DNA of 60,000 bases from positions 10,878,427-10,938,426 of the forward strand of contig OX442315.1 of the NCBI GenBank assembly GCA_949358305.1, in the 5' to 3' direction. Of this stretch, positions 17,376-58,882 are shown piece by piece. Within the stretch, counting starts at the first letter, position 1, and each line of letters starts with the position of its first letter. Origin of the DNA: Strigamia acuminata. Taxonomy: Eukaryota > Arthropoda > Chilopoda > Geophilomorpha > Linotaeniidae. The notes below the pieces were generated by a model that saw only the letters and a program-made list of their open reading frames with translations, did no database searches and was not told the origin of the DNA. The position numbers were made by a program, and so were the translations under genes.

Positions 17376-20300
17376 TCAGAAATGCATTTTTCTTAAAGAA
17401 TAAATAACGATGGCCTCTCCAAATTGAAACATTGCAGGGATGCTTAACCCTAAGAAGAGACCCAAATTTCCACCAACATCGCACATAAGAGAGATGAAAC
17501 TGTAGAGGTAATTTTCATTAACTATTTCAATTACATTATCATCAAAGTAGATGTATAACAATGCGTCATCGGATTTCTGGATCATTTTGAAGTGCTCAGC
17601 GTACAAAATTTCGTCACATATTTTAGGACATTTGCATTTTTCTGAATAGTCAAATGAGATGACAGATTTCAACAGTGCGTTGTAAGCATCAAGCGAATTG
17701 TTTGGATTCGTGCACAGTGGCACTTCCGACGGAGTAGTCAAAGGCAACCTGTGGTTGGGGATGAATAATTACAAGCTGAAATAAAAATGGTTTATCATTT
17801 CTCACCTGCAATGATTATTTTTTTTCAGATTAGCCTCGAAGCAGTTTAGTTCACACTCGTTGACAACTTTAGTTGTATCGCATGGTCTTTTGGTTGTATT
17901 GAAGAGCTTGAACTAAATGAAATGTCATAGTTAACTCGTAATTGCTGATTAAAAGTAACCAACTAACTCTTTTAGCAGATAAGCCGTACACAAGTTTGGT
18001 AAACGGTTTCAGAGCTTTGCTTTCTCGTGATACTTTGTAAGTGACAATATCATCATCGTTATGCAGCATAAACTATAATGAAAGGTGGTATTAAATTAAT
18101 GTCAGGTTAATTCCAAATTTATTTATATTTATATCGACGGAACTGCCCAGTAGACCCAACTCTTTCGACTCAATCTCACATTGTTATAATCGTGTGTGTC
18201 ACCAGGCCGAATATGTATAAATCCCGAATGAGGGTCTCCGACCGCTAGGGGGAGTTGGTTGTATTTTCGGGTCACGGCGGATGACGTGACGTAAACGTGA
18301 CTTCCGGTCACTTGTTCTTCTGGAGACGCGTGCCCTGTATATGCCGTGCGAATAAAACCTCTCATATCTTTTCATCCGAAGTCATCCAGTCTTTTCCCAA
18401 ATACAACAAAGGGTTATGGGCCACAGCATCTAACACTGCGTGAGTTTTTACATCTCGTATCGATTTTCCGGGCGTTTTGACGAAGGAGTGACCACTGACC
18501 GGACCACGAGACGTTAGGCCTAATTTCCAACGCGTGGTAGATCGCCAATCAACCTTCAAAAATGGCGGACAGAGATGCGATGAGGATCGAAAAGCTGGAG
18601 GATGAAAACTACGCCACGTGGGCGTTCAAAATGCGAGTATTCCTGAAGAAGTCGGAATGGTGGACGGTCATCGTTGACGAAGCACCAGTGAACGGAGCAG
18701 CGGCGGCGAGGAACGCGTGGCGTGGCAAGGACGAAAAAGCCATGAACGCAATCGTCCAGGCCCTGTCGCCAGCACAGACAGTGTACGTGATAAACAAAGA
18801 CACGGCACGCGAATGCTGGGAGAAATTGGAGGAAATCCACCGAGGGCGAGCGCGCCAAAGACAGACTATTTTGCGCCGAGAGCTGACCAAAACGAGATGG
18901 GAAAAAGCTGAGACGGCCACGAAGTTCCTGCAACGTGTGGAGTCGACGGTGAACCAGTTACGAGCTGTTGGCGGCGAAATTTCGGAGCAAGAGGTGGGAA
19001 CTTTAATAATACAAAACCTGCCAAAACCATACCACAGCATCCAGAGAGCGTTTGACATGTGCGACGAAGATGAGGTGACGATGGTCAAGCTGCGGCACAT
19101 GATCATACAGGAGGAATCGCGACAAACTGGAGACGATGAAGTGGTCGAGAAACTGCATAAAGTGAACCTGTCCAGCCGCACGAAGAACAACTATCGGGGC
19201 GGCGAACGGAACGGTGACCACGACGGAAAACGAGACCTGAAAAACGTAAGATGTTTCAATTGCCAAAAATTCGGGCACATGGCCAGAAATTGTCGCAGCC
19301 AGAAGGAGAGCGAGGGACGTCGCGATAACAATTCCAAGCAGTCGAGAGGAAATGCCAAGAAGGAACAGCAGCCAGACGCCACCGCCAGGGCTGTGAAAGA
19401 CAGACCAGAGTTTGCATTTCAGGTCAGAATCGACCAAACGGAAGGACGGCAGTGGAACCTCGACTCCGGAGCGACGAGGCACATGACGGCGAACAGGGAC
19501 TTTCTCGAATCGTTCGTGGCAGATGACGGAAGTCGAAAGGTGACGCTGGCAGATGGGCGCCAAATCCCAATCATGGGCTGCGGAAACGTGAAATTCATTA
19601 CGAACGACGCTGACTTGATCGCGAAGGAGGTATTATACATTCCTGATTTAAATGACAATTTGATTTCGGTGCCAAAACTCGACGACGCGGGTTTACTCGT
19701 TGCTTTCGGAAGCGGGAAGTGTACGATATCGAGCGGGGACCGAGTGATAATGACTGCTACGAAGATCGGGGACGTGTATAGACTGAACGTGGAGACCGTG
19801 GTGGCCGCGCAGGCAAACACGTGCCAACAATCGACCGAGATCGATGTGTGGCACAACCGAATGTGCCATTTGAACACGGCAACACTGGCGAAAATGCACG
19901 AAACGGGTGCAGTTTACGGTTTGGGGCCAATACAGAAGGACGGGCGGGCATGCGACGAGTGTGCAGCCGGGAAGATGGCCAGAAAACCATTCAAAACGAT
20001 CGTGAGCGACCAATCGACCAAAATATTGGAACTCGTGCACATGGATCTGTGCGGGCCGCTGACAGAGACGATTGGCGGCAGCCGATATTTGTTTTTGCTA
20101 ATAGACGACTTCAGTCGCAAAATGTTTGTCTATTTTATTAGGTCGAAGTCGGACGTTTTCGAGAACTTTAAGGAGTTTGTGGCGGCTGTGGAACGCGAAA
20201 CCGACACGAAACTTAAACGTATCCGATCCGACAACGGAGGCGAGTTCGTCAACCACGAAATGGGCGAGTTCATGAAGTCGAACGGCGTCCACCACGAGCT

Positions 20301-23300
20301 TACGGTGCCATTCTCACCTGCCCAAAACGGCATCGCTGAACGCGGCAACAGAACGCTGATGGAGGCAGCACGCACGATGCTGACGGCGGCGGCTTTGCCT
20401 TCCAAATTCTGGGCGGAGGCAGTCGCGACGGCCGCACACGTGCGCAACAGATGCTCGACAAGAGGAAACGGGGACAGGATTCCACAAGAACTTTGGAGCG
20501 GACGGAAGCAGCAAGTTGGCTATTTTCGAATATTTGGCTGTGCTGCGCAGATGTGGATCCATAATTCCAAACGAAAGAAATTGGACGCGAAGTCGAAACC
20601 TGTCATTTTTATGGGTTACTGCGTCAACAGAAAGGGCTACCGAGTCTACGACCCGAAAACTGAGAAGCTAGAGCCGACACGCGACTTGAAATTCAACGAG
20701 GCGAGATGGGGCGGAGAAATGCTGACTTCGCCTCAGGGTTCGAATTTCGTGTCGCCGTACGACGCCGAGCAAGAGACTGGGGAGCAGACAACAGACAATC
20801 CAGAGCCCAACGAAACGGACAACGGTGCCACCGAAGACGAGGAGTCCACCACTGGAAACGGAGACGGAGACGACGAAGAAGCTAACGAAAACACGACAAC
20901 ACGCAAATCAAAGCGCATCAAGAGGAAGCCAGACCGACTGGTGGTGCAGCCAAGAGGCGCCACATACTGCAAGAGCGTGAAGCACGTCGAGCCAAACACC
21001 GTGGTCCAAGCACAGGACTCTCCGGAACACAAGAAGTGGGAAAGCGCGATCCAGGAGGAACTGAAATCTCACGAGGAATTCAAGACGTGGAGACTGGTGA
21101 AAAGAGCCGTTGCAACAAATGTGCTGAAGTCAAGATGGGTTTTTAAAATCAAAAAGAACCAGCAGGGCGAGATCGAGCGTTACAAAGCCAGATTGGTGGC
21201 CGTCGGATGCGGACAACGGCCGGGACTGGATTACGAGGACACATACTCACCTGTAATGCGACTTGCGAGCCTGCGACTACTTCTAGCCATTGCTGTCCAA
21301 CAAAATTGGCGAGTACGACAATACGACGTGAAAACAGCGTACCTGCACGGGAAACTGCTTGAGAAGGTGTACATGGAGCAGCCACCCGGGAACGAGGAAC
21401 GAGACCGAGAAGAGTGGGTGTGCGAGCTTCTAAAAGCCATCTACGGACTCAAACAGGCCGGACGCACATGGTACCTGACACTCGACAAAATACTCAGAAA
21501 AAATGGATTTCGGCGACTATACGCGGATGAAGGCGTGTACGTGCTCAACAATCAAAGCGGGACAACAATATTGGGGATTTTCGTCGACGACATGCTGAAC
21601 GTGACGTCAAATATCGGGATCGAAGATTGGACGGCGGACTTGCTGAGAAAATCGGTCGAAATCAAGGATTTAGGCACACCAACGAGAATTTTGGGGCTTG
21701 ACGTGGAATGCGACATCGAAAATGGATCGATCACCGTGTCGCAAGAAGCCTATATCGAGGAGGTGTTGGAAAGTTTCCAGATGGGGCCATGCAAACCAGT
21801 GTCGACGCCGATGGTCAAACACGACCAACCGAAGCCCGAAGACGACGTAGATCCAGACGAGGTGCCGTACCAGAGCCTGATGGGGTCGCTAATGTACCTC
21901 GTGCAGGGAACGAGACCGGACATCGCTTACGCAACTCACTACCTGTGCCGATACAATCACAGCCACGGATTGTCCCACTGGAAGATGGGAAAGAGGATTT
22001 TGCGTTACCTGAAGGGGACGAAGGGGAAGAAGTTGCGATTCGTACGAAACGAGGAACAGATGACGGGATACGTGGACGCGAGCTGGAATTGCAACACCGA
22101 GGATGCAAAATCGACAACCGGATTTATTTTTCTACTTGCAGGGGCCGGCGTAGTATGGAAGTCATCGAAGCAAACGTGTGTCGGGATGTCGAGCTGCGAA
22201 TCCGAATTCATCGCCATTAGCGAGGCGGTAAAAGAAGGACTTTGGCTCAAGAAATTTCTGGAAGAGCTGGGGCTGAACGAATTGATGGGGGACGCTGCGA
22301 GGCTGTACACCGACAGCGAGTCGGCCGAGATGTTGGCACGAGGACTGGCGCAGCATCAGCGGTCGAAACACATTAATTTGCGCTATTGTTTTATAAAGGA
22401 CGAGGTCGAGAACGGAGAAGTGGAGTTGCTGCACGCGGGAACCGACAAGATGGTCGCGGATATGCTGACGAAGGCGGTGACTTTGCAGAAGCAGTGCTGG
22501 TGTTCAAAGATGTGTGGACTGGATTAATATTTTTCGTATTTCATATGTCTTGCAGCAATGTTATATTTCTTGATCTTTTATTATTCGATTGTATTAGTGT
22601 ATTTCTGTTATTACTTGCCCATTTTTAGTTTTTAGTAATGTCATTCATTGATTTTGTATTTGTTTGTTTTTACACATTGACCAGGTGAAGAAGGTGTATG
22701 TTATAATCGTGTGTGTCACCAGGCCGAATATGTATAAATCCCGAATGAGGGTCTCCGACCGCTAGGGGGAGTTGGTTGTATTTTCGGGTCACGGCGGATG
22801 ACGTGACGTAAACGTGACTTCCGGTCACTTGTTCTTCTGGAGACGCGTGCCCTGTATATGCCGTGCGAATAAAACCTCTCATATCTTTTCATCCGAAGTC
22901 ATCCAGTCTTTTCCCAAATACAACACACATGACTTGTTTTAATGTTTCTGTGTGTTTGTACCAGATGTCAACTCTTCTTTGAAGTCGCCGAACTTTAAGT
23001 AAGGCTTGAAGAATTGAAACATAAATTATTTTGGGGAGAAAATCTATTTTAAAATTTAAAATGTTTAGTTTTTTTTTAAATAAAAAAAAACCAAACATTT
23101 TAAATTTAACTAGCATAATTCAAACAAAATGTTTTGTAATTGTATACAATGCTAAACTATTTCATTGCCTGCATTGATTTATGGCATTACTAAGCCTTTA
23201 CACTGGTTTCCATCGGGTTTTTTTTCTTGTAATTTTATAACAAATATATCTCTTATTCTTTTAAAATATTCAAAACTAATTATGCTTGTTGTTGTCTTGA

Positions 23301-30514: not shown

Positions 30515-33500
30515 TTACTTAGACCTTGATATCGATATTGCCTTGACATACGTAAAATCTGGATTCCTCAATCTCAAACTATTGCTGAAATACCCCCAAT
30601 AAATATCATCATAATCATAATTGATATGATCAACTCTAAAATCAGACAAATACTTTCTAATGTCACACATACCAACCACGTTTAATACTAAACGCACTTC
30701 ATCCCAATGGCTGCATTTAAGTCCTTCGATCAATTCTAAAGCTGCTTTTACGTCAGTATTTCCTGATGCTTCCCATGGGTTGCGAGAGACAAATTCTATT
30801 GTTTTTAAATGTGATTTGCTTCTACTGCCCCATAAACAGTTCATGCAGGTGAATAATTTTAAGGGCATAGAGGCTACTTCGATCACCAACTTTACAATAG
30901 AACTTTCATGAATGGATTTTGCGGTCCATTCCCCATCTTTAGAGTAGTTTTTCGATTGAAGATTTAATGTTTGTAGATTTGTCCAGGCACTTACAAACCT
31001 TTCGTTACAGTCCCCATTTGCAAAGCTAACTATTAAATGTTTAACACTGTTAAAACCAACCCATCTTGGATAATTCTGTATCAAATGATTAATGTTCGCC
31101 ATGGAACAAGCAAACTTAGATGGCTCCACCTCAGTTACTGCTTCAATATTCTTCGGACAGCTTAGCCTTAGGTAATTACAACAATTTCTTTCTGTTAGAG
31201 ATTTCCTGCAAGTGATAGTACAATTATCCAGATTGATGAGATCGTATTTCTTGGTTCCACCATTGGTAATATCGTAAAAATCAACGGTAGTATTGTTCAA
31301 GTGTAGACATGTCAAATTAGTCGATTGAGCAACCGCACTCAAAAGGTCATTTGTATCCATCGTCTCACATCTAGCTTGCATAATTGCTTTGAGATATTGA
31401 ACTTGATTATTTTTTAGTAATCTCGAATTCACTGAAAATATTAATACGTAAACAATGATATTTGATTTTGTTGAATGTTTTTTCGGTCATTATACTTTCC
31501 ACCATTTTTGAGAATGATATTTCCAAACCACAAGATTTGATGTTTGGTGATACAGCAAAACGGACGCATGCCATAAATGTTCCAAAAAATGGGATCGAAT
31601 TAGAAAAAAATTTTTGCAAATTAGGCGACATTGTTGAGTGCATTATCACCTGTTGATTACTAGGTAATTTAATAATTATTTCCAAACTTGTTGTGAAATT
31701 ATCTGAGAACATTTCTGGAGGAACCGGTTCACTAATTTTCAGTTGTTTAATTTTACCACACTCCAATCCATATTTAAGTAAATTACTGTACGAGGATAAA
31801 TTTCTTTTGTAGATGGAAAACTGGCGGTACAAGTGAATGTGCGAAGAAATAAAATTTTTCAGATATTTGCTTTTTGAGAGATTGGTTGACGAACATTCTG
31901 CAAATTGTCTCACAGTTAAATCAAAATATAAAGAAAACCAGCCACTGAAAGACTCGATTTGGACGAGCAGAAGATCCAACTCATCATCCATTAAATTGGC
32001 GAGATAAGGCATAATTTGAGTTGTACTGCCAGTTTCAAGTGAACAATCTACAATTGATTCTAAACTGCCTTTTATGAGAGCAGATTCATTGGATTTCAGG
32101 TGAATCGAAAGAGCAAATGCTGCTGCAAACTCCATGAAAGACAAATGGAATGCTTCGTAATAATTTCTTGATGTGAAGAATGTGACTTCCTTATGGTTGA
32201 TTAACAGTCCAAGATGATATATCTCTGTTGTCAAATCATTCATGTCGAAATTCAAATCATTTTGGAGTATTTTTTGAATGCATAATTTTCCAAATTCTTT
32301 CATTTGTTCGCAAATTCTGTTGGATGGTGAGTTGAAATCAAATAGGTCGAAATCTTTGTCAATATCCATCCCACGTTTTACACAAGTGTGTCGCAGAATG
32401 GAATTAAATAGCGCCCTGTATAAGTCGGTTTTAGATGAGAAATATCCAATATTTTTTTCGTTTTTCATTATTATCGGCAACATCATTAAAAATAACGGCG
32501 AGTTAAACAACTCCAACCGGGATGACATACGTTCAAATATATCATTGACGTTTTCTTCAGAGATGAAATTTCTTAAAAATCTCCGTTTACTGTCGACGCT
32601 CTGAATCCCCAATATGCCGATCCGCTTGTCGCAAAACTCATAACTGTGGTTAGTTTGCCCGAACAGTTTAGCATGTTCACTTTCAGTTAACTTGAACAAG
32701 CTCGTTCTACAGAAGGCAAGTACTGTTGAATCACTGTACATTTGACTGTACAATACTTCCATTGTTTCGTATCTGTCTTCCAATGATAATTCGTCCACAC
32801 CGTCGAGCACAAAGAGAATTTCGCCCTTGTGTCTGGTCAGTATTTGCATGATGTTGACATTTCCTTGATAATCACATCGTTTTCCAATATTCATAATTGC
32901 ATCCTTTATAGTTCGTTGTTTCAGTTCTCGTAATGGTATGAAGAAAATCAATTTGAAGTTGATGTATTCTTTCTTTGTCGCCCAATCAAAAGCCAATTTT
33001 GTCGCCAGTGTTGTTTTTCCAAATCCAGGTTGTCCTTCAATCAGAATTCTGAGCGGTTTTTTGCCTTTGATCGAGTGGAAAATCTCATCAATCTGTATAA
33101 ATTTTCCTGACTTGTGGAGTTGGAGCTGGACAAAATGTTTCTCTAACGACAACTCACTTAAACCTTGGTTTAACCATGCAGTTTTTGGTAATTTTAACTT
33201 GGAGTAGAATGCTTGAAGTTTAGCTTTGAGAATATCACATTGTTTATTCCCATTGAAGTCTACGATTGTGCAACAATTTTTGATCACTTCCCTCTGTTCG
33301 CTAGTGGTTGCTTTAAAAAAAATGTTACTGTTATAGATATGAGTTTGAATAAGAAAATGACAATACTAACCTTTGGCAACTGTTGGAAAATATTTATTTA
33401 TAGTACATTGTTTGTATATTTTTGGTCCAGCATTAATTGTTCCGACTTTTGAGTCTTCAATATTAAAATGCACACTTCCACTGCTTTCGCTACCACATTC

Positions 33501-36673: not shown

Positions 36674-36724
36674 CCATGGTGTATTCGCTAACAATTTTAA
36701 AAGACGCCCTAACCAAGCACAAAC

Positions 36725-37363
36725 ATGCCGTACACGAAATCAGTTTCGAGTCTCGAAGATCTGTGCTTGACCAAAGCAACTATCCATTTAAACGAAATCA
36801 AACATCAATTAACGCAATTACCCGACATGTTTATCGAAACAATTTATCTTCGACTCGGTGATCACTTTAGACGCGATCACCAATTGCCTTCGACCATTTT
36901 TATTAATTCGGGCACTCCATTACTCCGCGATCCGTATAAGTTTGATCTTCCACTCGGGCCTCTATTGGAGAGAATGAGCGAGGTTTGTGAAAACCTTATA
37001 GATTTAAACTTGGATCAAATTCAAAATGAAATTTTATATGCAAACAGACACTACCTACAAATCCCATCGCTAATCAAACTGCTGCAACGTTCTCCGAAAC
37101 TTGAACGTCTAAGCCTCGTTCAAAGATTAGAATGCACTGACCGAGTCGTCGCTGCAATCGGTGAACATTGTCCGCGTTTACACTACCTCAACTTGGAGTG
37201 CTGCCGAAACGTTTCTGATTATTCAGTCGGTTCAATTAGGAACATGAAACTGCAGTATTTAAACATCATGTATACCAAGGTGACAGCCGAAGGTTGTTTA
37301 GCCATTCTAAACCAACTGCCGCTTTTAAAAGATTTGCAACATCATCTCTGGGATAAGATATTT
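36725..37363 (+). pseudogene. LRR gene A, 5' part (interrupted)
   Basis: First 213 codons of an intronless LRR protein starting MPYTKSVSSLEDL. The N-terminal ~110 residues have no clear domain, with only a weak similarity in pattern to an F-box helix. From about residue 125 onward there are leucine-rich repeats of the cysteine-containing/AMN1 type (LHYLNLECCRNVSD, LQYLNIMYTKVTAEGC). The frame runs unbroken to ATATTT (37358-37363), where a 5.2-kb DNA transposon begins; after the element the same frame resumes at 42558. Without the insertion and one copy of the 6-bp duplication the gene would encode about 452 residues. Gene B matches residue for residue over most of this part. Role unknown; LRR proteins of this sort often act as substrate receptors of ubiquitin ligases. 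Confidence 0.85.
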
Positions 37364-37399
37364 CCGAGGGGGGCGACAATCAGAATCTGCTTGTCAGAG

Positions 37400-37635
37400 A
37401 TTCGAATCTTTTTTGGGATTCGAAAGATTCGGATGGGATTCGGAAAGATTCGGATGGGATTCGGAAAGATTCGGAAAGATTCGGGGGATTCGGAAAGATC
37501 CGGATGGGATTCGGAAAGATTCGGAAAGATTCGGGGGATTCGGATGGGATTCGGGGAGATTCGGAAGGGATTCGGCGGGATTCGGTAGGATTCGGTGGGA
37601 TTCGGATGGGATTCGGATGGGATTCAGAAAGATTC
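37400..37635 (+). repeat. Left subterminal GATTCGG array
   Basis: About twenty short units of GGATTCGGAAAGATTCGG and GGATTCGGATGGGATTCGG follow one another, starting some 35 bp inside the left end of the transposon. The same words in the same orientation recur near its right end. Such arrays usually bind a transposase. The ORFs rich in IRK/FGKIR here are by-products. Confidence 0.85.
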
Positions 37636-37768
37636 ATATGATTTTTTCGGATTTTTTTCAAATAAATTTAGTAAAGTGGGAGATATTTTTTCATTTTATT
37701 TGAGACATTTAATAAAATGAACATTTATTTAGTTTTATTTGAGACTATTGAAATATTAAAATTTACAA

Positions 37769-40700
37769 TCAAAATTTTCCTTGTACACGTAATTGTCTAT
37801 CTGATGACAAGAATCCTCTTTCATGGATAAGTCTAAGAGCTGTTGTTTTTCGAATTAAAACATTTTTTTGTTTGATCATATACGGCACGTACAGACTTTC
37901 AATTGGAATATCATCAAATGAAAATGGTTCTTCTTGGTCAGCATATACAAAGCATGACAGTCCATTTATTTTCACTTTTTTTAATTTTCTAGTTAAATTA
38001 TTTCGTGTCATAACTTCTAAATTTGCCTGTGTTTCCTCATCTTCATCTAATATCGGAGTTACTTTTTCATTTGGTTCAATGTTGGTTTCGGATTCTTCCT
38101 CTTCATTTTGACTTAAATGGTCAGATCTGACAATGACATCCTTAACAAGTAAATTATCATTGAATATGTTGTTTGGATATAAAAAGCCGATCCCCACACT
38201 GTGCAATAATAGCACAGCTTTTCGTTGTGCCTTAGAAATACCGTCTATGATTATTTCATTCTTTGTTGGACAGCTAACATTTTGGAATGTCGAAGGCATT
38301 TCACCCATCTTAGATGAATATTTTTTTAATTTTGGCATCTTTAGAATGTTATTCGAATTGGCAGAAGCTCTGACAGCTAATTCGGATTCAATTCGATAAA
38401 TTTTTTTTATCAACTCACTGAGACTGAAATTAACAATTGTTGAATTCACAACAGAGTAACTTCTGGCAATACGAAAGAGTTGTTCACATTGTTGCGATCC
38501 AAGTAATTGTGGTAAAAATGGCAATGAATTTTCTCTGCAAGTTTCAATAACACGTATTAAACTGTGGCCATTTAATTCGATGCACTGATACGCATTGGTA
38601 GTTATAAAACTGTCCAGTTGCTTGCAAGTGGTACAGTTTTTTAACCAGAATCTCCATCCTCGTAAGATGAAAATCGCAGTCCAAATTTTCTCTATTCGTT
38701 TGAGAGGAGACAAGTCGTCTGCTAAAAAACAATCCAACACAAATTTCATCACTTTTAGATACAATAATGTTCCTCTAAATTCTTCTTTTTTTTCAATTAA
38801 TTCAAGAACATTTTTGGACACCATTCGCTCGACAGCTGCATAGTTCATCTTGTCTCGGCAATCAAGATCAGAAAGTCTTAATGGATGTGAATCCTTTGAA
38901 TTATTTTCCACTATATGCTGTAAATGTGAAATGCATATAAAACGGTGTCCAATTGGTAAACGATTTTTCTTAAGCAAACGACAACGTAGCTTTGCCCCAA
39001 TGTGAATAGTGTCCTGAATGAGAGAAAACTTTATGTTTCCATTCATAATAAACCATTTGTTTTCAGTTGAAGAAATCCTGTTTGGATCCTCTTCTTTTTC
39101 TTGAAAGACTGTTTTTGGTTCACAAAACAGACCACTTGATAACTGCATACTCCTTAATAATTTCGGATCACCATCAGCGCTGAAACCTGCGATCACAATA
39201 TCATTTGCATTGCACTCATCAAGTGTTGTTTTCCATCGGTTCAGAACATTAGTAGATGTGAATTTATTATCACTTCCAAATAAACAAAAACAAATGGCTG
39301 GAACATTTGGACACATTGGTTGTGCCATAATAACGTATGCTTGATTAGCAAAATTATAATTTTTGAAGTAAGCTTTGACATCTGGTATGGATGTGAATGG
39401 AAACGTATTAATTTCCGGCAATCCACTTGCTGATATCGGTGAGACAAATCCAACACATGCATTTTTATCGCCATCATAGTTGATTGATTGCACTAGGCGT
39501 GTTGCATCCTCACTTAACCAAACAGTGTTGTTAGTACAGTTGTACCTCTCCATATGTTGCTTCAAATAACCAATTCTTAGTTTTCCCTCTGTAATATCGT
39601 TTTGGAATTTTTTTAGGTATCTTTCAACCTGGCGACTGCTTGGTATACCGGAATTTAAATTCGCATATAAAATTGTGTATTTCGATGGTCCAAGCCACAT
39701 AAATAACAACATAGCAAATTCTTTTATCGAATCTGAGTCGTATTCATTTCGTTTTCGTTTGGTATTTGAGATAGCTGCATCCCACATTAGCTGCAAAAAA
39801 TTGCTGGGTTTAACCGTGGATTCAACAGTGTGTTCCAGGCTTGAGTGGTCTTCAGTAACTGCCGTACTTTGCTGCTGCAGCAAATGCGTTATAAAGTTGT
39901 TTAAATTTTTGTTTTCAATTAACAAGTGTCGAATTTCATCAAGAGGGTTGTAAAAATTGGTAATCTTTTGGCACATCGCACTTGATTGTAACAATTCCTT
40001 TTTGCTTTTTTCTTTTCTGTAATAAGCTCTGGAGTACATTTCTGCAATTTTATAAAAATTTGTTATCATTTGTAAAAGGCATAAAACAATTTATTTATTC
40101 ATTACCTATTGGCGTGGTTGTTACAATATCTTGATTTGCACCCAACTCAAGATCTAATTGCATTTCATTCGTACATAAGCTTACATTGTCATTATTTTCT
40201 GTAACATAATTAAACTGGTCATTATCATTATCATCGTTGTGGGTTATTTCTTCCCCATTCTTCTCTCCTGTTGCACGGAAATATAATGGCAAACTTTTTT
40301 GGGTCATGTTTCCAAATTTACACCTTTTAGCGCACTTTTCTAGATGTCTTGTTGCATTGAAAACAGTAAAGTGTTTATCTCTGATGTGCAATCGTATTTT
40401 CCCATTACACATCAAACACAACACCACAACTTCATAATGTTCAAATATATTGTCACTGCTTGATTCGCTGGAGGATACGGTAAATTTAAAATCTTTTTCG
40501 TGTTTTAAACTCTTTAGCGCTGGATCAGTCTGTTTTGCAAGCCATTTTCTCATTTTTAATTTCACATCAGTGTAAATTATGGATTCATGAGTGTCGGTTT
40601 CTGACGTATTGGTGTTTGATGTGGTGCTTTTTTCAGTTCCATAGTTGCAAAACTTCTGACCACAAGAATCATTAGCTTTGTCTGACAGTCTCAGCCGCTT

Positions 40701-41018
40701 ATGTGTTTTCACCACGGTTTTCTCGTTGTCATCGATTTTCCTTCGACAGATATCTTTAAATCGTGTTATTTCTTCATGTTGTCCAGGTGCAAAACGAAAT
40801 TTCTCGGGCTTTTTATGGAATTTTCCATAAATCGCTTTCAGCTCTTTCTCATCTTCGTATAGATCAGCTGTATCCTGCAGATATTTTTCAATCAATTCAT
40901 TGCTTTCAATTTTTGAAATTCCAGTTAATGTGAAATATCCTGCAGCTTTCAAGCAGGCTTGGATCTGTGGCGAAATATCATTCTCTGTTGCGAATTGCCA
41001 AACCGTTCCATCCGACAT
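37769..41018 (-). CDS. Putative DDE transposase, about 1061 residues
   Basis: Two exons, 40106-41018 and 37769-40041, joined by a 64-bp intron (donor G|GTAATG, acceptor TTGCAG), phases matching; ATG at 41018. Exon 1 has a CX2C...HX3C cluster (C201, C204, H225, C229) like a BED-type zinc finger, likely DNA binding. The second exon shows a set of conserved-looking acidic motifs: SEDATR (D483), GFSADGD (D594, D596), QDTIHIGAK (D648, H651) and GSQQCEQLFR (E824). The order D, D, insert, E recalls the RNase H-like core of hAT- and P-type transposases, but I know of no family with exactly these motifs; similar uncharacterised proteins may exist in other invertebrates. The frame is uninterrupted. It is the only gene in the element. 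Which acidic residues are catalytic is inference. Confidence 0.75.
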
Positions 41019-41194
41019 CCTTCCCACAGAAAAAGAAATCTGAAGCAAAACATTATTTATTAGTAAAGCTGCTATTTTTGCGGGCCTAAAACGACGTAAT
41101 TGTAGCCGGAAAGCGGATCAAAAAACCGCCCTTTTGCAGACGCATTGCGAAGTTATTGCCGGCTCATTTTTTGGGTGTAAATAACAATTTTTTT

Positions 41195-41375
41195 TAACCT
41201 AAAAATGAATTTTTTTAACATAAAAATGAATTTTTGGTCCAAAAAATAAATTTTTCGTCCAAAAAATAAATTTTTTGTCAAAAAAATGAATTTTTTTTAA
41301 CCTAAAAATGAATTTTTCGTTCAAAAAATGAATTTTTCGTCCAAAAAATGAATTTTTGGTCGAAAAAATGAATAA
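41195..41375. repeat. Internal tandem array, about 20-bp period
   Basis: Units of the form GTCCAAAAAATGAATTTTTC repeat about nine times with variation, upstream of the transposase start codon inside the transposon. Confidence 0.8.
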
Positions 41376-42419
41376 TATCCTCGATAATATCTTTGCGAGA
41401 CACCTCTATCATTGGCCAATATAAGTAAAAGTAAGGTAAATTATAAAAAAATTTGTTCATTATTCCATTCGATTCCATTACATTTGTGTATGGAATATAA
41501 AAAAAGAATCAGGTAATATATTTTATTTATTTTGTTTTATTTATAATCCATACTCAAATTTAATAAAAAAAAACAAAAAAAAAAGATCTTATTTTGCTAA
41601 TTACAAATTTTAAAGAGTTTCATTTTCCTTTAAATTAATAACTTACAAGTTAGTAGTAAATCAAATCAGATTTTTTTTTCATTAGAATAAAAAAAACGAA
41701 TAATATATTTTCTTGTGGAATAAGGAACATTTTTTTTAGTAGGAATTTGGCGATCATTTCAACCAAAATCGGTGAAAATAGCCCGAAATAGCCCATACGT
41801 CGCCATACGTATATTTCAACCGATATCAATAGAAATAGCTTTTCCGAAATATCAAATTAACGCGCACTTAGTTCATAATCTGTTACCGTACTAATTATTC
41901 AATTTCAATTCAATTTCAATTCAAGTTTGACTCGAATTTCACCGTAGCGCTAAAAAAATCGTCGACTTTCGTAACAATTTTCGTATGGTCGTATGAATGG
42001 AACTTGCCAGAGGAACCTGTAGTTGGAACGAAAAGCATCATAAAAATAATCAATGAGAAAATAATAATCCGCAAAAGTCTTACCTTTAATAGGATAAAGT
42101 AAAATACGAGGTAAAATAGCACGCAATCCAACTCAATCACAATTGCGAACAATGTTGAATTCCGGGATTAATTTGAAGTTCGCGCTAAATCATAAATGCG
42201 CATGCGCAGATACCGCGCAGCGAGGTGCGCAGGTATAATTTCCTCCGATACGGACAATTTCAACGACAATTTCCGACAATTTCAATGTGGAACATTTATT
42301 TCTCGATTTATTTACAGTTGTCAGTTATTCCCTTGGTTATTCCAGTTTTTTGTAAAAATATTATTACATTTTTTTATCATAAATTTTGACTTTATTTTCC
42401 TCGATTTGTATACAATTTA

Positions 42420-42520
42420 AAGATTCGAGATTCGAAGATTCGGTGGGATTCGGAAAGATTCGGGCGGGATTCGGAAAGATTCGGGCGGGATTCGGAAAGA
42501 TTCGGGCGAGATTCGGAAGC
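42420..42520 (+). repeat. Right subterminal GATTCGG array
   Basis: GGGATTCGGAAAGATTCGGGC is repeated three to four times, ending about 40 bp inside the right end of the transposon. Orientation is the same as in the left array, so the arrays are direct while the terminal repeats are inverted. Confidence 0.85.
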
Positions 42521-42557
42521 CATTGTCAGAGATTCGGTCAAATGTCGCACCCCTCGG

Positions 42558-43283
42558 ATATTTCGTTGGTTAGAACAACAAATCATTTCGAACAAACCAC
42601 TGCGCACTTATTCCCTCAAGGAGTGTGGGTATTGTCCTTATGATGTTAAAACGATCGCCACTGTCACCGCCGCTTTCCCCAATTTATGCAAGTTGGCTAT
42701 TACACGCCCACATCTGAACTTGGGATCGATCTTGAACCACACACAAGACAAATTACTACGAATAACCAGTCTAACTCTGAACCGATGTTGGAATGTCGAA
42801 ATTAGACTTATTGATCATTGCTTTCCACTGCTTGAGAGTTTAGAATTGATTCGATGTGAAATTTCTGATGAAAGTGACGATACTGTCTTTTTACGGCAAT
42901 CGGCTGAGCATATTCCTTACACGAACCTTCGTCGTCTGTATGTAGATGCCTGGTGGAATAGTGACGAGTTAACCGACAAGTTTTTGGATCTTTGTCAGAA
43001 TTTGGAAAGCTTAAAAATCACTAGGTGCGATGAATTTTCTCACCAATTAGTTTCAAAACATGTTCGATTGGGCACGTTTAGAAATCTGAAATTTCTATCA
43101 CTTACTGCTTGTGACTCGATTACTTTGAGTTCGATCAAAGAATTGTTGGATATGCACGGACCATTAAATGCGTTAAATTGTTATTGTTGTAGAAACATAA
43201 ACGCTGCAGCCTTCGTTAAAATTGGCTCCCACGTGAAAAGTAAGAACTTGGATATCGAGATTATGAACAAAGACATAATTTGA
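42558..43283 (+). pseudogene. LRR gene A, 3' part (interrupted)
   Basis: The second part of LRR gene A, from the second ATATTT to the stop. Read in frame it continues with RTYSLKECGYCPYDVKTIAT, AAFPNLCKL, RLIDHCFPLLESLELI, LCQNLESLKITRCDEF and LKFLSLTACDSITLSSIKEL, typical LRRs, and ends MNKDII. It aligns with the C-terminal part of gene C along its whole length. No other lesion is seen, so this copy was probably intact until the transposon arrived. Whether it still makes a truncated protein is not visible. Confidence 0.85.
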
Positions 43284-56557: not shown

Positions 56558-58882
56558 TCACGGCTCCGGCGTATCCTCGGACGGCGGTTGCGGTTGAGAG
56601 GGGCCGCGGGGCTCCTCTTCGGACGCAGCCGCGACCTCCGGCGCGATCTCTCGTGCGGGCCTTGCTGGGGCTGGAGAAGTTCTCGCTGCCTCCAGCACGG
56701 ATCGTATGGATGGTGGTGGTGGCATCAGTCGCTTGTCCTCCGCTGCGGCTGCTGACGTTGATGGGGAAGGATGCGATCGAACCTTCTCCACCATTGGTGC
56801 AGCAGCCGTCGACACTGGCGAAGGTGGTGCGCAGCGCGCTCCCCTCTCGCCCTTCGTTGGAGTGGAACCCGGCGCGGCCTTGCGGGACTTCTTCCCCTTC
56901 CCCTTCTTCTTCCGCTCGCGCTCCACCTCCTTCTTGTGCGCATCGTACTCGGCCTCCACCGGGTCCCAAACTTCGGCGCTAAAGTCGTCCTTGTAGGCCT
57001 TCCGCCTATGCACCCGCTTGACGATTACCTCCTCGTAAGTAGGTGGGGGTGGTGGCGATAGTGTTGCCAGCTCCGGAGGCATCTCGATCGGGACGGGCAC
57101 GTGGGATGCCGGTCTGAACACCCGCTGATGGCCATGGTTGTCCACCAGCTTGGGCAAACTCGCCAGCGTCTCCACGTAGCCGCGACAGACCGATGGGTCG
57201 ATGTCGGCGAAATCCGCCCCGACAGTCTCCTCCAGCGTCCATTCCTGAACCGCGAACGGTGACGGCAGATGGAGGTACCAGGCGTTCATGGCCGCCCCGA
57301 CCGTCCACGCGACGATCCGGACAGTCTCGAACCACCTGAGCCTCCTTGCTGCTGCTGACGCGACAGAGGGGATGCTGAGAATGATCCACATTCTCTGTCT
57401 TATCAGTGCCACCGCTCGGGTCATTCGGATGTCACTCCCCCTGGCATCCTCGAAGCGTAAATGGAGTTCCCTCCAACGCTTCGCTTCCGCAACCCAGAGC
57501 GCCAATGTTTGCTCGTGCGCGTGCTCAAGACGGGGAACACCCTGTATGAGCAGCTCAGCACAAACAACTGGGGCTCCGGGCGGCAATTCGGCGATCTCGA
57601 GCGGCGTCGGGCCCCCTACGGGCTCGAGGAACTCCGCTCCTTCCCGCTGCTCAGGGGGGTGTGGTACCTGGGCAGGTTCCTCACTCCCCGCCGCCGTTTC
57701 TACTTCCATGCCGACCGTCTCGGAGTCGGCGAGTCGCAGAAGTTGCGCCTCGAGAGACAAGCCCTCCAAGACGGACAACTCCAGCACGTCGTCCTCCGAA
57801 ACAGCCAACTGGAACTCTTCCTCCACCGAGGCAGGTGACTCGCACTGCTCCATTGGCAGCTCGGCGCAAGCGCCCTGCATCTCCTGGGGAACCGAGCACT
57901 CGTCCCGCGGCGTGGACTGAGTCGACCATCCTGCCAGCGATGCGAGGCTACCCCAGGTACGGTGCGGAAGGCCGCCTGTTCCGTTGAACGAGTCCACTGG
58001 AAGGCCGAGAGCAAACGACGCGCAAGCAATCGCTTCCTCCGAGCACGCTCCGATCACAGGCTCGTCGGAAACCACAGGAAGGCCCAAAGCGAGTGGCATA
58101 GCTGCAATAGCCTGTTCCTCGACTCCGGGCTCCCCCGCTGGCAGCTCGATGACGTTGTCGGGGCGATCCAGAGCAACGGACACGGCCTGTGCGGCCTGTT
58201 CGCTGACTCCCGGTTCCCCGACCGGTTGGGTTACTGCCGATACGGCAGCAGCCTCGGCCTCTTCCAACGCCTTGGCCCGTATGGCGTCGGCACGCGCCCT
58301 TCTCGCCGCCTCCTTGAAGCGGCAACGCAGACGCTTTTCTTCGCACTCCACCTGGAACGGCGTGGCCTTGGGGTGAGTGGCACGCCAATTCACCATCGCG
58401 GCCGCGTGCCGCACGGTCATCTCCTCCGTCCAAGTGGAGGGCGGTGGCTCCTGCCTTTGGCGCTTCGGGCTCGGCTGGGCTGGCGCCTCTGCAGACGCTG
58501 CTCGTCCAGCCTGAACCCGGCGCGCTGGTTGCGGGATGCTCGACGGGGCAGGCTGCTGGTCCCGAATCCTCACCGCCTCGACTGTCAGCCAACGCGGGAG
58601 AAGCGCGAAACCGTTCCGCACCAACGTCTGCGTCCTGGACTCCCAGGAATCCACCTGCATCCACGTCGTTGTCGGGCGGGTGTGATGGCGATCTCCACCC
58701 TGCCTCGACAAATGTCGCACGAACCATCTTTGTCTGGGCACGGAGAAGTGGACTAATCCGTGTCCCAAACAATTCCCGCAAGGGGACTCCCAGCCGCTGG
58801 CCGCAACCTGACACCGTTCGCCGAGGCAAACGGGACAGATGCGCCACTGGTCCGAACCATCATCACCAGAATCTCCTGATTT
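56558..58882 (-). CDS. Long ORF of a GC-rich LTR element, unknown product
   Basis: Open frame of about 775 codons. It opens at 58882 right after TTTCTTTAG, a good splice acceptor with an in-frame TAG just before, so the start is probably in an upstream exon; ATGTGGCGAGGG at 59732 with donor GCG|GTAAAA would fit the phase but is tentative. Near the N-terminus is CPVC...CGNC (CX2C, 16 residues, CX2C). A low-complexity acidic part holds three imperfect repeats (GEPGVSEQA, GEPGVEEQA, ACSEEA, each followed by AL..P). The middle has a helical, tryptophan-rich part. Then PPPPPTYEEV gives a PPTY late-domain-like motif, a basic KKKGKGKKSRK stretch and a proline/serine-rich end. The PPTY motif favours a structural (Gag-like) protein, but its place next to the 3' LTR favours a third ORF. 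I recognise no family. Confidence 0.6.
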   Translation of the reverse strand, partial: KSGDSGDDGSDQWRICPVCLGERCQVAASGWESPCGNCLGHGLVHFSVPRQRWFVRHLSRQGGDRHHTRPTTTWMQVDSWESRTQTLVRNGFALLPRWLTVEAVRIRDQQPAPSSIPQPARRVQAGRAASAEAPAQPSPKRQRQEPPPSTWTEEMTVRHAAAMVNWRATHPKATPFQVECEEKRLRCRFKEAARRARADAIRAKALEEAEAAAVSAVTQPVGEPGVSEQAAQAVSVALDRPDNVIELPAGEPGVEEQAIAAMPLALGLPVVSDEPVIGACSEEAIACASFALGLPVDSFNGTGGLPHRTWGSLASLAGWSTQSTPRDECSVPQEMQGACAELPMEQCESPASVEEEFQLAVSEDDVLELSVLEGLSLEAQLLRLADSETVGMEVETAAGSEEPAQVPHPPEQREGAEFLEPVGGPTPLEIAELPPGAPVVCAELLIQGVPRLEHAHEQTLALWVAEAKRWRELHLRFEDARGSDIRMTRAVALIRQRMWIILSIPSVASAAARRLRWFETVRIVAWTVGAAMNAWYLHLPSPFAVQEWTLEETVGADFADIDPSVCRGYVETLASLPKLVDNHGHQRVFRPASHVPVPIEMPPELATLSPPPPPTYEEVIVKRVHRRKAYKDDFSAEVWDPVEAEYDAHKKEVERERKKKGKGKKSRKAAPGSTPTKGERGARCAPPSPVSTAAAPMVEKVRSHPSPSTSAAAAEDKRLMPPPPSIRSVLEAARTSPAPARPAREIAPEVAAASEEEPRGPSQPQPPSEDTPEP

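Follow-up and report, generated by a model that had tools for sequence, protein, structure and literature searches.

A probable divergent P-type DNA transposon in the genome of Strigamia acuminata

Within a 60,000-nucleotide stretch of the Strigamia acuminata genome (contig OX442315.1 of assembly GCA_949358305.1; hereafter the window, whose numbering we use), we identified a complete DNA transposon of 5192 bp at positions 37365-42556. With a probability of roughly nine in ten, we consider it an autonomous cut-and-paste element from a divergent lineage of P-type transposons: its enzyme is distantly related to that of the fruit-fly P element, from which it differs in the DNA-binding end and in the cofactor pocket, and the element adds a branch to a kind already known. 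We establish here the ends of the element, its target site duplication (TSD) and preferred target, how many copies exist and how alike they are, the structure of its gene, and the predicted fold and homology of the protein. Since its catalytic core, TSD and target site are P-like, we assign the element to the P superfamily, broadly defined, which also includes 1360. The narrower P-element/THAP9 family is marked by features including a 17-nt staggered donor cut and GTP dependence; judged from its sequence, the element departs from that family in two marks, the THAP domain and three GTP contacts.

Catalytic core and closest relatives

Structure and profile comparisons both pointed to the Drosophila P element transposase (PDB 6p5a, 6pe2) as the nearest relative found. 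A first-pass annotation of the window had proposed a DDE-type transposase, and structure prediction agrees: the predicted model contains an RNase H-like fold with a helical insertion domain at the same place as in P, and D483, D594 and E824 likely form the catalytic triad. The D, D, E triad and the accompanying D/CxxH signature of the P superfamily (PMC8230255) are both present. The features of the core are as follows, with open reading frame (ORF) numbering in brackets.

38321-39796, minus strand: P-like core in the predicted model, comprising the RNase H fold, helical insertion domain and preceding region (ORF residues 99-590)
39506-39508, minus strand: putative first catalytic Asp D483 (D195), aligned to P D230
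39173-39175, minus strand: putative second catalytic Asp D594 (D306), aligned to P D303
39011-39013, minus strand: Asp of the DxxH motif (D360), aligned to P D339
38483-38485, minus strand: putative catalytic Glu E824 (E536), aligned to P E531 in global mode only

Conservation was counted over 124 related proteins aligned to the profile of a 78-row alignment (A3: the window protein and 77 of the 124, leaving 47 outside it). The rows of A3 were picked partly for showing the motifs, which inflates counts made on A3 itself, so counts on all 124 are quoted. The first Asp is kept in all 122 relatives covering it, the second in 124/124, the Asp of DxxH in 124/124 and the Glu in 123/123; D596 is likewise invariant. 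The motifs SEDATR, GFSADGD, QDTIHIG and GSQQCE, already picked out in the first pass, are present, and their key residues are conserved in the relatives.

Profile comparison placed the new family with P proteins. A profile of nine PF21787-type proteins from the same genome matched it with probability 98.0 (E 2e-13, 317 columns), and the same program gave 97.3% for four P proteins and 91.5% for a single one, against at most 1.1% for the controls (four hAT and three MULE proteins of the same genome, pooled and singly, and three column-scrambled P alignments). These values bear on a hAT origin, which we regard as very improbable. hAT elements make 8-bp duplications, as this element does, and often carry BED fingers, which its C2H2-like finger resembles; fold searches of the N-terminal model, which is of low confidence overall (predicted template modelling score, pTM, 0.39), gave no significant match. 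However, we found no hAT dimerisation domain and no hAT profile match (at most 1.1%, compared with 97.3% for P), and the structural alignment to P also disfavours this origin.

Conventional P-type matches are also numerous in the same genome, where the PF21787 model has 117 matching places. The catalytic core of these conventional elements can be aligned with that of the new family. One of them, L069, the only such place scanned for THAP, served as a positive control (THAP match 2e-16); it has hits to the Pfam models for THAP, RNase H N, GTP-binding and RNase H C, four in all. Several of the conventional matches occur in identical copies, so that two P-type lineages are present in one genome. 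A KDZ model had no match in this genome or in the control genomes either, and is therefore uninformative as to homology with Novosib or Zisupton.

Searches for relatives returned 4 matches with the window ORF, 6 with an alignment and 256 with the relative P0001, the best 120 of which were listed; viral contigs yielded none. Some relatives bear database names that are clearly wrong, such as 'Maturase K' and '30S ribosomal protein S4E'. The suspicion that the group is poorly described holds within what was examined: neither the window protein nor 15 relatives matched a Pfam family at cut-off, and the literature searched held no fitting description, although the group may be filed in Repbase or Dfam.

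Ends and target site duplication

Lining up the ends of copies across the genome confirmed a complete element with inverted ends and corrected its boundaries, giving the following features.

37365-42556: complete DNA transposon, read as P-type, 5192 bp (sequence and copy comparison)
37357-37364: left TSD, GATATTTC
42557-42564: right TSD, GATATTTC
37365-37378, plus strand: left terminal inverted repeat (TIR), CGAGGGGGGCGACA
42543-42556, minus strand: right TIR, CGAGGGGTGCGACA read on the minus strand
37365-37684, plus strand: left subterminal array of 18 GATTCGG, none on the other strand
42397-42556, plus strand: right subterminal array of 9 GATTCGG in the same orientation

The inverted ends had been given as 15 bp and the duplication as 6 bp. 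The outermost bases of that proposal, 37364 (C) and 42557 (G), differ among copies, while the CGAGGGG next to them is constant, and the variable base equals the corresponding flank base in 13 of 14 copies. Both bases are therefore part of the duplication, leaving TIRs of 14 bp with 13 matching positions and a TSD of 8 bp. With the corrected ends, a perfect 8-bp TSD flanks 13 of the 14 copies, the exception being one of an inverted pair. More broadly, among 53 elements with a complete pair of TIRs (14 long, 39 short), 50 have perfect 8-bp TSDs, all 50 different; the exceptions are L010, which is the copy in the inverted pair, L016, whose duplication is shifted and 7 bp long, and L027, with two mismatches. 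This set was drawn from 68 loci, to which the first 100 of 151 TIR matches contributed, and excludes seven TIR starts with no partner in the fetched stretch. The abundance of the TIR is not due to chance, since the 14-bp sequence occurs 151 times in 237.5 Mb, against 0 for the reversed pattern.

The 6-bp reading had underlain the view that the superfamily could not be named, a view that lapses with an 8-bp TSD and P transposase as the closest relative. A DDE superfamily unrelated to P with a genuine 6-bp duplication accordingly has almost nothing left to recommend it: the window copy, taken by itself, has flanks that allow such a reading, but across the copies the outermost base at either end is variable and agrees with the flank, and 8 bp is found in 50/53 pairs. 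IS3EU and Dada make TSDs of 6 or 7 bp, and membership of either was rejected on the same count.

GATTCGG occurs 18 times in the left 320 bp and 9 times in the right 160 bp, and is absent from the intervening 4712 bp and from the opposite strand; these arrays are probably binding sites for the transposase. Upstream of the gene inside the element, window positions 41164-41351 are AT-rich and repetitive, with about 70% match to their own reverse complement. An Rfam scan of 37000-43000 gave no match.

Target preference and host site

Rebuilding 50 empty sites revealed a weak palindromic preference, 14 bp wide and centred on the TSD. Without symmetrisation, we observed A or T at position -2 (43/50), G at -1 (14/50; p 0.065, not significant), G at 1 (20/50), T at 3 (29/50), A at 6 (24/50; p 0.011), C at 8 (23/50), C at 10 (28/50) and A or T at 11 (50/50), these eight positions having been chosen after viewing the profile of the same sites, which makes the p-values optimistic. 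The P element is likewise reported to target a 14-bp palindromic pattern centred on its 8-bp TSD (PMC4168063).

The window copy itself lies within a host reading frame.

36713-37364, plus strand: left half of the interrupted host reading frame, with leucine-rich-repeat-like matches
42565-43283, plus strand: right half of the same frame

In the reconstructed empty site the flanks join into a continuous frame that spans 456 codons from stop to stop, and the two halves have leucine-rich-repeat matches under the Pfam cut-offs (E 5e-4 and 7e-6), so that the element probably interrupts a coding exon. Other long open frames in the window lie at 18541-22527 (1328 codons), 31407-33365 (652) and 56558-58882 (774).

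Copies and recent transposition

The genome search for copies with the same ends, proposed in the first pass, did find them, with duplications of 8 bp rather than 6. In the window's own genome (237.5 Mb) we identified 13 full-length uninterrupted copies, including that of the window, and two further copies split by other elements. Six of the 12 other uninterrupted copies are identical to the window copy over 5192 bp, three differ by one base and three have insertions or deletions. The complete 773-codon main frame is present at about 100% identity in 13 places including the window's own, in one of which (C11) the exon-1 part is broken by another element. The presence of multiple identical or nearly identical copies indicates very recent transposition and, with the open frames, accords with the earlier description of an intact, possibly active element; the element may be active at present.

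We additionally identified 39 short elements with the same TIRs (L016-L027 and L029-L055), 38 of them 738-769 bp long and one (L034) of 182 bp, which outnumber the 14 long copies in the fetched sample. Perfect 8-bp TSDs flank 37 of the 39. The short elements, which have the same ends and TSD length as the long ones, are probably mobilised by the same transposase.

Some copies show unusual arrangements. At C1:515242-530795 (L067, L014, L068, L010), two copies in opposite orientation lie 58 bp apart with their TSDs swapped (GATCAAAC, GCGCACGT), as if recombination between the two had inverted the spacer; an assembly error could also produce this. The L068 copy is interrupted by a 1510-residue Copia gag-pol-like frame, with end repeats at least 150 bp long, and the L015 copy by an insert of 2.7 kb that has a 6-bp duplication and a gag-like frame of 723 residues, both inserts being identified by eye.

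Transposase gene

The single spliced reading frame of 1061 residues and the CX2C...HX3C finger stand as first proposed, encoded on the minus strand.

40106-41018, minus strand: exon 1, with the ATG at 41018
40042-40105, minus strand: predicted 64-bp GT..AG intron, GTAATG...TTGCAG
37769-40041, minus strand: exon 2, with the stop at 37769 (total protein 1061 residues)
40704-41018, minus strand: N-terminal helical domain (about residues 1-105), common to relatives by multiple alignment only
40332-40418, minus strand: zinc-finger-like CX2C...HX3C, C2HC in the window protein and mostly C2H2-like in relatives

Proteins of the aligned set have the helical N-terminal domain followed by a CxxC...H finger, except for P0003, in which the finger is absent. 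The finger of the relatives is mostly C2H2-like (W..SN...H), and of 22 relatives whose N-terminal part is long, 20 match a loose finger pattern. It is the multiple alignment, at 17-24% identity, that shows this part to be shared; phmmer does not pick up so low a similarity, giving no match at E 10 to any of the 124 relatives for residues 1-305 of the window protein.

Weighing the P-type assignment and the GTP pocket

The element resembles Drosophila P in its D-D-E triad with DxxH, its 8-bp TSD, its 14-bp target pattern and the terminal G on the transferred strand (PMC7776569). It differs in having TIRs of 14 bp rather than 31 bp, and direct GATTCGG arrays at both ends. Galileo and zebrafish Pdre2 have TSDs of 7 or 8 bp, and Pdre2 has TIRs of 13 bp (PMC10983969, PMC4168063). 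THAP9, like P, contains a THAP domain, which was not found in the new element, and in zebrafish THAP9 the GTP-interacting residues are reported to be conserved (PMC10983969).

Several results weigh against a P-type assignment. The structural alignment of the predicted model to P has 13% identity, and PDB sequence searches with the protein and two alignments gave no significant match and no P structure. The Pfam scan of the window protein and 15 relatives, without a family at cut-off, also detected no THAP domain; among P domains, PF21787 stood at E 0.13 in the window protein, short of the cut-off, and there were weak, below-cut-off matches to PF21787 in P0111 and to PF12017 in P0058 and P0042. 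A search for excision footprints keeping both full 14-bp TIRs found 0, a result that still allows footprints with lost ends. Finally, the residues at three GTP-contact positions are different: P D528 is replaced by an invariant Gln (123/123, aligned in global mode only), K400 by an invariant Asn (124/124) and V401 by Phe or Tyr in 117/124.

According to PMC7776569, no transposase other than P is known to use GTP as a cofactor, which P contacts through D528, K385, K400, V401, S409, F443, D444 and N447. Our comparison rests on D528, K400 and V401; S409 falls in a column that is variable in the new family, and K385, F443, D444 and N447 have no confident alignment. In five conventional P sequences of the same genome, two of them nearly identical, the K385, V401 and S409 positions keep K, V and S in 5/5 covering sequences, and at K400 three have K and two have R (both by eye). 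With three contact positions holding other residues, which may line a single pocket, the GTP cofactor may be absent or different in the new family.

These differences could also mean a separate superfamily with the P fold, one that diverged before THAP and the use of GTP arose in P and that deserves its own name, which we consider possible though somewhat doubtful. It would fit the lack of Pfam matches at cut-off in the window protein and 15 relatives, set against the four domains matched by L069, the different invariant residues at GTP-contact positions and the different N-terminal part of the aligned set. However, the insertion domain, DxxH, 8-bp TSD and 14-bp target preference are common to P, and the catalytic core is the usual basis for delimiting superfamilies. 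This alternative overlaps with the P-type reading: the mechanism is the same and only the naming differs.

Proposed mechanism and implications

For a P-type element of this kind, the transposase would bind the element ends, probably through its N-terminal finger at the GATTCGG arrays, and pair them. The RNase H-fold active site (D483, D594, E824) would then cut the DNA, and the 3' ends would be joined to target strands 8 bp apart within the weak 14-bp palindrome, a spacing that would give rise to the 8-bp duplications.

With six other identical 5192-bp copies and short TIRs, the element lends itself to testing in a transposition assay, and a related, apparently recently active enzyme with altered GTP-contact residues makes the origin and role of the cofactor testable by comparison. 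A more far-reaching reading, which we hold to be less likely than not, is that it represents a large arthropod lineage with the P fold that might be GTP-free or hold another ligand at the invariant set D701, N704 and Q821 (ORF D413, N416 and Q533), with a C2HC/C2H2 finger, and with THAP either exchanged or never had. If this is true, the GTP pocket, which has been called unique to P, would be a derived trait confined to a single branch within a broader superfamily.
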